A DNA stretch of 33,773 nt from Chloroflexota bacterium. Lineage in GTDB: Bacteria > Chloroflexota > Anaerolineae > Anaerolineales > Anaerolineaceae. Within the stretch, counting starts at the first letter, position 1. Each line of letters begins with the position of its first letter. Of this stretch, positions 7,260 to 32,361 are shown in pieces. The notes under the pieces are model-generated. The model searched no databases. It saw only the letters and a list, made by a program, of their open reading frames with translations, and was not told the origin of the DNA. A program made the position numbers and the translations under genes. The stretch is from contig JAJXZS010000026.1 in the NCBI GenBank assembly GCA_021779955.1, forward strand, positions 1-33,773. The letters run 5' to 3'.

Positions 7260-7271
7260 TATAATCTTGAT
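7260..7271 (+). promoter_or_regulatory. -10 box and predicted leaderless start of the thioesterase gene
   Basis: A perfect TATAAT at 7260-7265 is followed by exactly 6 nt and then the ATG at 7272, so the expected transcription start is the A of the start codon. No Shine-Dalgarno sequence can exist on such an mRNA. The -35 region is poor. An upstream in-frame TTG at 7257 would lie before the transcription start and is therefore unlikely. Confidence 0.6.
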
Positions 7272-7694
7272 ATGACTGAATATAAATTCTACACCAGTAT
7301 CCCCGTTCGCTACGGCGATTTAGACCCCCAGTGGCATGTCAATAATGCGCACTTTTTCACTTTCCTTGAACAGGCGCGCATCAGCTACCTGGTTAAATTG
7401 GGCCTCTTCAAGGGTAGCAATTTCCTTGACTTTCCGATCATTGTCGCCGATGCACATTTAACTTACAAGCAGCCGATTCCTTTTGGCGTCAATGTGGATA
7501 TCGGGGTTGGCGTGACGAAGATCGGCACCAAGAGCCTTACCTTTGAATACGCTGTGCTCGACCCAGATCACGCAAAGGTGTATGCCACAGGCGAGACGAT
7601 CATGGTCGCATTCGACTATCGCATCAATGCCACGGTCCCCGTTTCACCGGAATGGCGCGAACGGATCGGCCGCTTCGAAGATAAAACCTACTAG
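7272..7694 (+). CDS. Acyl-CoA thioesterase, 4-hydroxybenzoyl-CoA type (hotdog fold)
   Basis: Soluble hotdog-fold thioesterase of 140 residues that probably hydrolyses an acyl-CoA. The signature RYGDLDPQWHVNNAHFFTF fits the 4HBT/YbgC pattern D-x-D-x3-H-V-N-N, with D16 or D18 as the expected catalytic acid and EQAR ending the motif. The start is placed at 7272 because a TATAAT box ends 6 nt before it. The M42 peptidase gene follows 15 nt downstream on the same strand, suggesting co-transcription. Substrate preference cannot be read from sequence. Confidence 0.88.
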   Translation: MTEYKFYTSIPVRYGDLDPQWHVNNAHFFTFLEQARISYLVKLGLFKGSNFLDFPIIVADAHLTYKQPIPFGVNVDIGVGVTKIGTKSLTFEYAVLDPDHAKVYATGETIMVAFDYRINATVPVSPEWRERIGRFEDKTY

Positions 7695-25171: not shown

Positions 25172-25576
25172 CTAATAAGTGAGCTTGCGTGGAAGTTTTT
25201 TAGCTTGCTCGATCCAATCTTTCACCTGAGGTTCGATCGGCATCTTGCGCACGAGTTTCTTGGCAGTATTGACTTCGACCATCTTTGCGAACAGATTGGC
25301 TGGAACTCGCTTGGAAAGCTCGACAACGGTATCCACCCCAGACGCTTCGAGAAGATCGGAGTATTCGCTGCCGACTCCCTTGATCCTGTATAGATCGGCG
25401 CGATTGACCCACTCTAGGATCATTGTTTCATCGATTCCAGTTTTGGCAGCCAGATCCTTTCGCCCCTTCGGCGTTGCTGCAACTTCCAGAAGAGTATCTG
25501 TGGTCGCAACACCGGCTGCCTTTAATTTCTTGGCATAAACAGGGCCGATACCCTCAATATCGATGATACTAGCCAT
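25172..25576 (-). CDS. DUF4332 helix-hairpin-helix protein
   Basis: 134-residue soluble protein of the DUF4332 type. Two helix-hairpin-helix-like units are seen: IEGIGPVYAKKLKAAGV (7-23) and IKGVGSEYSDLLEASGV (65-81). A basic C-terminus follows (KKLVRKMP, KKLPRKLTY). HhH units usually bind DNA or RNA backbone without sequence preference; the family has no settled function. An AGGAGG site lies 8 nt before the ATG. It appears to be a single-gene unit. Confidence 0.85.
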   Translation of the reverse strand: MASIIDIEGIGPVYAKKLKAAGVATTDTLLEVAATPKGRKDLAAKTGIDETMILEWVNRADLYRIKGVGSEYSDLLEASGVDTVVELSKRVPANLFAKMVEVNTAKKLVRKMPIEPQVKDWIEQAKKLPRKLTY

Positions 25577-25682
25577 AATCCATTCCTCCTGAATTGTTGT
25601 TTCTGATTCGTTCCTTATAGTATCAGTATAGTCAAAAACAGATGAAATACAACTTGGCAGAGTCGTTCACATTCCCTTGCGT

Positions 25683-25695
25683 TATAATCATTCCC
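25683..25695 (+). promoter_or_regulatory. -10 box and predicted leaderless start of gatC
   Basis: TATAAT (25683-25688) is followed by 7 nt and then ATG at 25696. The expected transcription start is at the start codon, and there is no ribosome site between. An upstream in-frame ATG at 25642 lies before this promoter and is rejected. Confidence 0.6.
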
Positions 25696-25983
25696 ATGAG
25701 TCTGACCTTGAAGGAAGTTGAGCACATTGCCGAGTTGGCCCGCCTGGATCTGACGCAAGCCGAGAAGGAACAATATCGCGAACAGCTTTCCGCAATACTC
25801 GACTATGCGCAACGACTCCAGGAGGTGGAAACCACCAACATCCCTCCAACGTCAAGCGTGCTGCCGTTGAGCACTGACCTGCGCGATGACGTGCCCCAGC
25901 CTGGCCTGACCACCGAAGATGCTCTCAAAAATGCCCCCGAAAAGAAGAACGGGCAGTTCAAGGTACCCCCGGTGTTCGAATGA
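25696..25983 (+). CDS. gatC: Asp/Glu-tRNA amidotransferase subunit C
   Basis: Small belt subunit that holds GatA and GatB together in the tRNA-dependent amidotransferase. Its 95 residues are normal for GatC. The N-terminal helix pair shows LKEVEHIAELARLDLT, and the extended C-terminal part shows PTSSVLPL and LRDDV. The start at 25696 is set by the promoter geometry and by the family N-terminus. The stop overlaps the gatA start as ATGA, giving tight translational coupling. Confidence 0.94.
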   Translation: MSLTLKEVEHIAELARLDLTQAEKEQYREQLSAILDYAQRLQEVETTNIPPTSSVLPLSTDLRDDVPQPGLTTEDALKNAPEKKNGQFKVPPVFE

Positions 25984-27461
25984 CCTCAAAATTGATCGAT
26001 CTTACCGTTGTTCAACTCCTTAGCGGACTCAAACATGGTGAATTCTCATGCGTAGAGGTTGTCAGGGCGTACCTCGATCACATCCAGGCTGTAGACCCGA
26101 AGGTGCATGCATTCATCACCGTCTTGCCCCAAGAAGCCATCGAGGCCGCCGCCAAAGCGGATGGTATTTACGTATCCGCCCGAAGGTCTGGATCGCTCGA
26201 ATCCCTCCCCCCTCTCCTGGGTTTGCCCATTGCGGTCAAGGATCTGGTAACGGTAAAGGGAGTACGTTGCACCTGCGGTTCTCCGATCCTCGATAATTTC
26301 ATCGCACCTTTCACAGCTACTGGTGTGCAACATCTTCTCGATGCAGGCGTGATCATCCTGGGCAAGACCAATACAGACGAATTTGCCATGGGCTCTTCCA
26401 CCGAAACCTCGGCATCCGGCCCAACTTTCAATCCCTGGGACCTCAGCCGTGTGCCCGGCGGCTCCAGTGGTGGATCTGCGGCGGCTGTGGCTGCGCGGAT
26501 GATCCCTGCGGCTATCGGCACTGACACGGGCGGTTCGGTCAGGCAGCCGGCGTCCTTCTGTGGAGTGACAGGCATCAAGCCCACATATGGACGGGTAAGC
26601 CGTTACGGCCTGGTGGCTTACGGTTCCTCTCTCGACACGATGGGTGTGCTCGCTCGCACTGCCGAAGACGCTGCACTTCTCTTTTCATACATGGCCGGCT
26701 TCGATCCCCTCGATGCCACAACGGTCAAGGTACCTGTTCCAACCATTGATCTTGCAGAACACCAGGAGATCAGGGGTATGCGCATTGGTGTTCCAGCGGA
26801 ATACTTCATCAAGGGCATCCAGCCCGAAGTTGAGAAGAGCGTCCGCGAAGCAATTCAATTGCTGGGTTCGTTAGGCGCTTCGGTGACCGAAGTCAGCCTG
26901 CCGCACACCAAATATGCTTTGCCCGTCTATTACTTGATCGCCCCGGCTGAAGCATCGGCCAATCTGGCACGCTATGATGGCATCCGTTACGGCGTCCGGG
27001 AAGATGAAGCATCCCTCGGCGACATGTTCCGAAAAACACGCGGACACGGTTTTGGACCCGAAGTGAAGCGGCGCATCATGCTGGGCACTTATGCTCTCTC
27101 TGCAGGATACTACGATGCCTATTACGCCAAGGCGCAGAAGGTGCGCACCCTGATCAAGCGTGATTTCGACGAGGCATTCCAGCGCGTGGATGCCATTGCC
27201 TGCCCGGTCGCGCCTTCAACTGCTTTCAGGCTCGGTGAGCATGCCGGCGACCCGCTGGCCATGTACCTCGAAGATGTGTTCACGTTGCCCACCAATCTGG
27301 CAGGTGTTCCGGGGTTGGCTTTTCCGATCGGCTTCGATTCGAGCGGCATGCCCATCGGTATACAGCTCATGGGCCCGCATTTCAAAGAAGATACGATTTT
27401 CAAGCTCGCCCACGCCTACCAGCAAGCTACAACCTGGCACAAACAGCGTCCCCAACTGTAA
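25980..27461 (+). CDS. gatA: Asp/Glu-tRNA amidotransferase subunit A
   Basis: Glutaminase subunit of GatCAB; it releases ammonia from glutamine for amidation of misacylated Glu-tRNA(Gln) or Asp-tRNA(Asn). It has 493 residues. The amidase-signature Ser-cisSer-Lys triad is intact: K87 in LPIAVKDLV, S162 in GGSSGGSAA and nucleophile S186 in GTDTGGSVRQPA, with the 75- and 99-residue spacings of characterised GatA. It overlaps gatC by the ATGA. gatB lies 3.4 kb further on, so the complex is encoded at two places in this window. Confidence 0.96.
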   Translation: MTSKLIDLTVVQLLSGLKHGEFSCVEVVRAYLDHIQAVDPKVHAFITVLPQEAIEAAAKADGIYVSARRSGSLESLPPLLGLPIAVKDLVTVKGVRCTCGSPILDNFIAPFTATGVQHLLDAGVIILGKTNTDEFAMGSSTETSASGPTFNPWDLSRVPGGSSGGSAAAVAARMIPAAIGTDTGGSVRQPASFCGVTGIKPTYGRVSRYGLVAYGSSLDTMGVLARTAEDAALLFSYMAGFDPLDATTVKVPVPTIDLAEHQEIRGMRIGVPAEYFIKGIQPEVEKSVREAIQLLGSLGASVTEVSLPHTKYALPVYYLIAPAEASANLARYDGIRYGVREDEASLGDMFRKTRGHGFGPEVKRRIMLGTYALSAGYYDAYYAKAQKVRTLIKRDFDEAFQRVDAIACPVAPSTAFRLGEHAGDPLAMYLEDVFTLPTNLAGVPGLAFPIGFDSSGMPIGIQLMGPHFKEDTIFKLAHAYQQATTWHKQRPQL

Positions 27462-30836: not shown

Positions 30837-30889
30837 TTTCGCATACCGGTAACCATTCTCCACTCTCGATTCTCGAGCCTCTATCGTGT

Positions 30890-30903
30890 TACAATCACGC
30901 ATT
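30890..30903 (+). promoter_or_regulatory. -10 box and predicted leaderless start of gatB
   Basis: TACAAT (30890-30895) is followed by 8 nt and the ATG at 30904, so transcription should begin within a base or two of the start codon. No ribosome site is present. An in-frame GTG at 30886 is upstream of the -10 and is rejected. Confidence 0.55.
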
Positions 30904-32361
30904 ATGAAATACGAACCTGTCATCGGGCTCGAAATCCATGCAGAGTTGGCGACGGCTACCAAGATGTTTTGTTCGTGCCGCCTCGTCGACACGACTCAGG
31001 CGGCGCCAAATACTACGGTTTGTCCTGTGTGTGCGGGCATGCCGGGCACATTGCCGGTTGTCAATCGCAAGGCCGTCGAATACGGCATCAAGGTTGCCCT
31101 GGCGCTTGACTGCGAAGTCCAGCACTCCAGTATTTTTGCTAGAAAAAATTACTTCTACCCTGATCTACCCAAGGGTTACCAGATTTCGCAATATGAGTAT
31201 CCCCTGGCCACCCATGGCAAATTAGTGGTCGACACTCCTAAAGGTGAGCACACGATCCATGTCACCCGTGTGCACCTCGAAGAAGACACGGGCAAGCTGA
31301 CCCATATCCACAACGGCAAAGAGGATTACTCGCTGGTCGATCTTAATCGCGCAGGCGTTCCACTGCTCGAGATCGTTTCAGAGCCTGACATGCATTCGAT
31401 CGAAGACGTGCGTGGATATTCCACCGGCTTGCGTGCCATCGTGCGCGAACTCGGCGTCAATTCCGGGGATATGGAAAAGGGTGTGATCCGATTCGAAGCA
31501 AACGTTTCATTGCGTCCTGCCGGATCGAGTGTATTGGGCACCCGTGTCGAGATCAAGAATCTCAACAGCTTCCGCGCCATGGAGAGGGCGATTCTCTTCG
31601 AGATCGAGCGCCAGACCAGGCTGCTCGAATCAGGCAAACCCGTTCAACAAGAAACATTGGGCTGGGACGAACCCAACCAGACCACATATTCACAGCGTTC
31701 GAAGGAAGAAGCGCACGACTATCGCTATTTCCCGGAGCCCGATCTCCCACCCCTGGTTGTCGAACCCGAATGGGTGGAGCAGATCAGGGCCAGCCTGCCC
31801 GAGCTTCCCCGGGCAAAAGCTCTGCGCTTCCGCAATACTTTTGGATTGTCCCCTGTCGAAGCCGGCATTCTCGTCTCTGAACGCGAGATCGCCAACTACT
31901 TCGAGGATGTTGTTTCGCATTTGAAGACCGTCACGCCCCGCACCGCGGCCGTCTGGCTCACAGGTGAGATCTTCGCCTGGATGAATCAGACGAATACTCC
32001 ATGCGATCAGATCAAGATTACACCGAAGCAGTTTGCTGATCTGCTCGAAGAAGTCCAATCCGGAAAGATTAATCAAAACACCGGAAAAGCCGTGCTTTCG
32101 CAAATGCTCGAAACCGGCGAGAGCGCGGCCAGGATCATCTCAGACCGAGGGCTCGTCCAGGTTTCAGATACAGCCTTCATCGCCAACCTGGTCAGCCAGG
32201 TGCTGAGCGAACACCCCGCCGAGCTTAACAGCTATAAGACCGGCAAGCTGACTCTCGCCAACTGGTTCTTCGGACAGGTAATGAAAGCAGCAGGGGGCAA
32301 GGCAAATCCGGCGGTGCTGCGAAGAGAGCTGGAGAAACAACTCAAGCATTCCCTCGAATAA
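30904..32361 (+). CDS. gatB: Asp/Glu-tRNA amidotransferase subunit B
   Basis: tRNA-binding and kinase-like subunit of GatCAB that activates Glu-tRNA(Gln) or Asp-tRNA(Asn) by phosphorylation before amidation. It has 485 residues. The cradle domain opens with PVIGLEIHAEL; C23, C25, C40 and C43 (FCSC...CPVC) form a zinc knuckle; VDLNRAGVPLLEIVSEPD and YRYFPEPDLPPL are invariant family segments. The C-terminal YqeY-like tail (about 330-485) is complete. It is expressed from its own predicted leaderless promoter, separately from gatCA. Confidence 0.96.
   Translation: MKYEPVIGLEIHAELATATKMFCSCRLVDTTQAAPNTTVCPVCAGMPGTLPVVNRKAVEYGIKVALALDCEVQHSSIFARKNYFYPDLPKGYQISQYEYPLATHGKLVVDTPKGEHTIHVTRVHLEEDTGKLTHIHNGKEDYSLVDLNRAGVPLLEIVSEPDMHSIEDVRGYSTGLRAIVRELGVNSGDMEKGVIRFEANVSLRPAGSSVLGTRVEIKNLNSFRAMERAILFEIERQTRLLESGKPVQQETLGWDEPNQTTYSQRSKEEAHDYRYFPEPDLPPLVVEPEWVEQIRASLPELPRAKALRFRNTFGLSPVEAGILVSEREIANYFEDVVSHLKTVTPRTAAVWLTGEIFAWMNQTNTPCDQIKITPKQFADLLEEVQSGKINQNTGKAVLSQMLETGESAARIISDRGLVQVSDTAFIANLVSQVLSEHPAELNSYKTGKLTLANWFFGQVMKAAGGKANPAVLRRELEKQLKHSLE

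Follow-up and report, generated by a model that had tools for sequence, protein, structure and literature searches.

A consensus −10 element held 6 to 9 nucleotides before the gatC start codon in Anaerolineales, and the probable leaderless start of gatC–gatA

The gatC–gatA locus

The window, by which we mean the whole stretch of DNA analysed, comprises 33,773 nt from a Chloroflexota bacterium in the order Anaerolineales (GenBank assembly GCA_021779955.1, contig JAJXZS010000026.1, positions 1 to 33,773). It carries gatC and gatA in tandem, facing away from a DUF4332 gene (Table 1). Because this nearest upstream gene is divergent, gatC cannot be reached by read-through from it. A sequence-only reading of the locus had pointed to TATAAT-N7-ATG with no Shine-Dalgarno sequence (SD) in front of gatC, and to a gatA start by ATGA overlap. 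Both features are present: the first is exact at 25683-25698, and the gatC stop and gatA start share the ATGA at 25980-25983, the arrangement expected for termination-reinitiation. The search from −22 to −4 of gatC gave an anti-SD duplex energy of +0.7 kcal/mol, and thus no SD.

Table 1. Features of the gatC start element and its surroundings (positions in the window)
Feature	Position	Strand	Remarks
DUF4332 gene, divergent, SD-led (AGGAGG)	25172..25576	−	Pfam PF14229
Divergent intergenic region, 119 bp, between gatC (no SD) and DUF4332 (SD AGGAGG)	25577..25695	.	
Extended −10 position, CGT in the window	25680..25682	+	TGn in 23/51 genes, middle G in 39/51
−10 promoter element TATAAT of gatC	25683..25688	+	Exact consensus; 6-9 nt before the gatC start in 51/67 genomes of the order, own included
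7-nt discriminator CATTCCC	25689..25695	+	CCC end abuts the predicted +1
gatC start codon ATG	25696..25698	+	Orthologue N-termini aligned; transcription predicted to begin at its A
gatC, Glu-tRNA(Gln) amidotransferase subunit C, 95 aa	25696..25983	+	Pfam PF02686 (GatC), 82 bits
GGTG, weak SD-like, 5 nt before the gatA ATG, within gatC Pro-Val codons	25971..25974	+	
gatA, amidase subunit, 493 aa; start overlaps the gatC stop in ATGA	25980..27461	+	Pfam PF01425, 522 bits

From the first base of TATAAT to the A of the gatC ATG is 13 nt, which fits the spacing of TA-led genes (TANNNT about 12 bp upstream). At the extended −10 position the window keeps the G and lacks the T. The assignment of the start codon is backed by the orthologues, whose N-termini align at this codon or within a few codons of it. 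A two-hexamer scan of 25400-25800, which demands a −35, found no −35/−10 pair.

The window alone leaves chance possible, since its single TATAAT-N7-ATG compares with 0.12 expected and at least one site arose in 12 of 100 shuffles. In the genome to which the window belongs, the pattern is in excess beyond chance: 39 sites were counted against 9 for a backward control pattern. The figures were 68 against 12 for TATAATN{6,7}ATG and 24 against 10 for TATAATN{13,14}ATG. For TATAATN{6,7}ATG, the forward-plus-reverse count exceeded the backward control in each of 81 genomes, with the smallest margins in G075 (32 against 25) and G043 (85 against 70). Among 203 ORFs, chosen greedily in 233.8 kb of the window's own genome, exact TATAAT did not peak clearly at N6-7, each of these two distances having one ORF. 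One-mismatch forms occurred before 5, 2 and 3 ORFs at N6, N7 and N8 vs 0-4 elsewhere; with so few cases and uncertain starts, these counts serve as leads only.

Conservation of the element and relatives with a leader

The sequence-only reading had named the −10-to-ATG distance in related Anaerolineae as the comparison to make. A gatC gene was located in 67 of the order's 81 genomes, counting that of the window, and the sequence upstream was read in every case. Judged by gatC, the closest relatives with a name are metagenome genomes labelled Anaerolineaceae or Chloroflexi. An exact TATAAT stands 6-9 nt before the same gatC start codon in 51 of the 67, which are kindred genomes and not independent cases. 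The distance is 6 nt in 15 of these, 7 nt in 30, 8 nt in one and 9 nt in five, so that 45 of the 51 fall at 6 or 7, and the proposal of a leaderless gatC promoter gains from it. As controls, stretches of equal size lying another 20-110 nt upstream had an exact TATAAT in 29 of 6030 cases, and the remaining ATGs of these loci in 6 of 3089. Allowing N10 brings the count to 52 of 67, and these represent 36 of the 49 genera and 11 of the 15 families. At least nine changes of the near-TATAAT state are needed on a rapidly built gatA tree, many of whose forks are weak and some of whose rows are short.

What is kept is the hexamer and its distance, because the 36 nt upstream of TATAAT cannot be aligned (median pairwise identity 0.28 among the 51). 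The TGn of an extended −10 is found in 23 of the 51, where 2.7 cases would be expected (Table 1), and no −35 is conserved, as TTG occurs in only 1-2 of the 51 genes at each spacing from 15 to 19. The base before the ATG is C or T in all 51 near-TATAAT genes. We had considered this pyrimidine as proof that +1 lies at the A and dropped it, because the bias is almost as strong in SD-type gatC genes (62/74, vs 67/70).

An SD was scored at a duplex energy of −5 or lower over −18 to −5, or over −22 to −4 in a wider variant. By the first, an SD is present in 1 of the 52 near-TATAAT gatC genes of the order (N10 allowed) vs 7 of the 15 others; by the second, 3 of 51 pass vs 8 of 16. The arrangement is absent at N4-9 from 16 of the 67 genes, and 8 of the 15 that lack TATAAT even at N10 also lack an SD by the cut-off.

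Some relatives keep TATAAT and have an SD leader. In four members of the order (L019, L026, L033 and L040) TATAAT lies 28-32 nt upstream, and an SD stands between it and the start codon (dG −5.9 to −14.9). Two Anaerolineaceae loci (L346 and L349) and one from HGW-Chloroflexi-10 (L347) have TATAAT 31-36 nt upstream together with an SD (dG −5.9 to −6.1), and the locus from HGW-Chloroflexi-2 (L348) is identical to L033 (genome G022). A further candidate for a switch of initiation mode, L072, was left out, as its TATAAT is 48 nt away and no evident SD accompanies it. Similar pairs exist in a family of another class (f26): in one genus TATAAT lies 8-9 nt before the gatC ATG in five genomes, and in a second genus three genomes (L140, L145 and L156) combine a TATAAT at 26 nt with an SD (dG −8.6). 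Among all 131 gatC loci outside the order, exact near TATAAT was found in 6 (the start of one, L206, is uncertain) and a one-mismatch form in 11 more; TATAAT 10-39 nt away was found in 26 and an SD in 70.

One other site deserves a separate mention. At G018:C12:75190-75217, each strand of ATTATAAT reads TATAAT, and an ATG follows at 7 nt in either direction, one of the two being that of gatC. From its layout this could be a bidirectional leaderless promoter.

Contrast genes

Other genes were run through the same classifier with the best 30 loci of each, own included for DUF4332 and the thioesterase. The DUF4332 gene had a near −10 in none of its best 30 loci and an SD in all 30. In the window, a 4HBT thioesterase (ATG at 7272) is preceded by TATAAT-N6-ATG at 7260-7274; exact TATAAT stands at N5-9 in 25 of its best 30 loci, and 6 of the 30 pass the SD cut-off. 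TATAAT-N7-ATG is also found elsewhere in the same genome (L006, G000:C5:35170-35185), before a gene that from its sequence we take to be a ROK-family kinase. Its best 30 loci, in which paralogues may be mixed, had exact near TATAAT in 14 and an SD in 10. Because these counts differ from gene to gene, a near TATAAT is not general to starts, gatC is not the sole case, and the mode of initiation tracks the gene.

The gatB gene of the window (ATG at 30904) presents TGTTACAAT-N8-ATG at 30888-30906, giving the enzyme another leaderless-like start. Across its 12 same-genus loci, TAAAAT at N9-10 was counted in 10 and TACAAT in 2; for the 11 apart from the window, the distance is N9-10. Deep conservation of the gatC kind was not upheld for gatB: none of its best 30 loci has an exact near TATAAT, 3 come within one mismatch and 13 have an SD. 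The genome also carries a second GatC-like (2.9e-9) and GatB-like (4.5e-38) pair at G000:C30:52716-55108, and second GatB-like matches are present in many relatives.

Interpretation and relation to known systems

We propose that the 16 bases from TATAAT through ATG very probably form a compact start element, in which a promoter leads to a leaderless gatC and from there, plausibly, to re-initiation on gatA. The housekeeping-sigma RNA polymerase would recognise the consensus −10 with no −35, helped in many relatives by an extended −10. Recognition of a −10 by a sigma-70-type factor puts +1 about 7-8 nt past the hexamer. At gatC this position would be the C or A of CCC-ATG, so transcription is predicted to start at, or within about 2 bases of, the A, and the leader would be absent or 1-2 bases long. 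With such a leader, ribosomes would have to begin at the 5′-terminal AUG, and would do so with no SD. That the predicted gatC mRNA is leaderless or very short-leadered is well supported at the level of sequence by the comparison of orthologues.

Ribosomes that end at the ATGA could in part re-initiate on gatA, perhaps with help from the GGTG, since the overlap permits termination-reinitiation. That gatA translation depends on that of gatC, as the sequence-only reading had suggested, is plausible. We do not put it more strongly because the GGTG could aid either re-initiation or independent initiation.

There are three alternatives to weigh. The one that survives best concerns the gatA half alone: gatC would be leaderless, and gatA would start independently from its weak SD and not by re-initiation. 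We regard this as a real possibility, though we lean away from it. The GGTG lies 5 nt upstream with an SD duplex energy of −5.6. In the order, where gatA starts were assigned by a rough rule, the 67 junctions comprise 24 overlaps (19 of them the 4-nt ATGA), 28 gaps of 0-30 nt and 15 gaps above 30 nt, and an energy of −5 or lower is found at 23 of the 24 overlapping gatA starts and at 19 of the 28 with a gap of 0-30 nt. On the other hand, the GGTG falls within Pro-Val codons and may exist for the protein. Moreover, the accessible text of Huber et al. 2019 (PMC6728339) reports that, of 14 overlapping pairs tested elsewhere, 13 were strictly coupled, the SD contributing to a variable degree.

A second and improbable alternative is that an upstream promoter yields a leadered gatC, or a longer one. 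An in-frame ATG at 25642 preceded by TATAGT at 25627-25632 (together 25627-25644) would give a protein 18 aa longer, and this TATAGT-N9-ATG could be a leaderless start of its own. However, the orthologues of the order align from about codon 1 of the shorter protein (MSLT), and their TATAAT, where present, precedes the MSLT codon and not the equivalent of 25642. A longer leader would in any case bring no SD at 25696, and the scan upstream, with its demand for a −35, offered no hexamer pair. The last alternative, that TATAAT lies near the ATG by chance or as an AT-rich patch that helps 30S/S1 initiation of the ordinary type on an mRNA with a leader, draws on the window counts and on the eight members of the order with neither near TATAAT nor SD, but seems to us far-fetched, because the near-fixed spacing of an exact hexamer in 51 of 67 genes, the enrichment of TGn and the retention of TATAAT in relatives with an SD leader would be expected of a promoter but not of an AU-rich patch.

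A bolder extension of the leaderless reading is that each gene in the order stably inherits its own mode of initiation, gatC and the 4HBT thioesterase remaining leaderless behind a near-invariant TATAAT and DUF4332 remaining SD-led. Selection would keep the leader off gatC, so that production of GatCA, and with it of correct Gln- and Asn-tRNA, would go on under throttled SD initiation. We consider this speculative and rather unlikely.

If the compact start element is what we take it to be, these genomes would offer clear, testable leaderless genes in a little-studied phylum, and one gene would be seen to keep its promoter 6-9 nt from the start codon despite turnover of the surrounding sequence. 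Relatives that share the −10 but differ in whether they have an SD leader would be natural pairs for studying changes of initiation mode. Gene callers that rely on an SD to fix starts would then call for caution in these genomes.

In the literature searched, a library with few subscription papers and no preprints, nothing was found on conserved leaderless orthologues, the only match for leaderless mRNA in Anaerolineae concerns anti-SD types, and no work on transcription start sites of leaderless genes in Dehalococcoides was found. PMC6160228, in its accessible text, discusses GatCAB and leaderless reporters and mentions no leaderless gatC. In the accessible text of Nakagawa et al. 2017 (PMC5397173), the third, leaderless/S1-linked component has a negative mean for the two Chloroflexi included, and this lack of a leaderless-type bias fits a minority mode.

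Three known systems come close, each as described in the part of the source accessible to us. The ATGA termination-reinitiation pairs of Huber et al. resemble gatC–gatA in the 4-nt stop/start overlap; coupling was tested there, whereas gatC–gatA is known from its sequence and overlaps in a minority of loci. The −10 elements adjacent to ORFs that Zhong et al. 2025 (PMC12340547) describe in Deinococcus-Thermus likewise lie 6-7 bp before the ORF and are conserved among Deinococcus homologues. There, however, the middle of the motif varies, TACACT is commonest and, to judge by the section headings, expression was tested; the gatC case involves TATAAT in another phylum. Closest are the TA-led leaderless bacterial genes of Zheng et al. 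2011 (PMC3160421), which like gatC have TANNNT, or TAtaaT, about 12 bp before the start and no SD. In that study Chloroflexi had leaderless genes in 4 of 12 genomes, at an average of 4.7%, with a TAtaaT pattern, and the turnover of initiation signals between orthologues was measured in Actinobacteria. It gives fractions at the level of genomes, whereas gatC is one gene followed through one order, with its exact distance and with relatives that have an SD leader. Thus gatC appears to be of the TA-led leaderless kind already known, Chloroflexi included, and what it adds, as far as our searches of the literature go, is the depth of its conservation.
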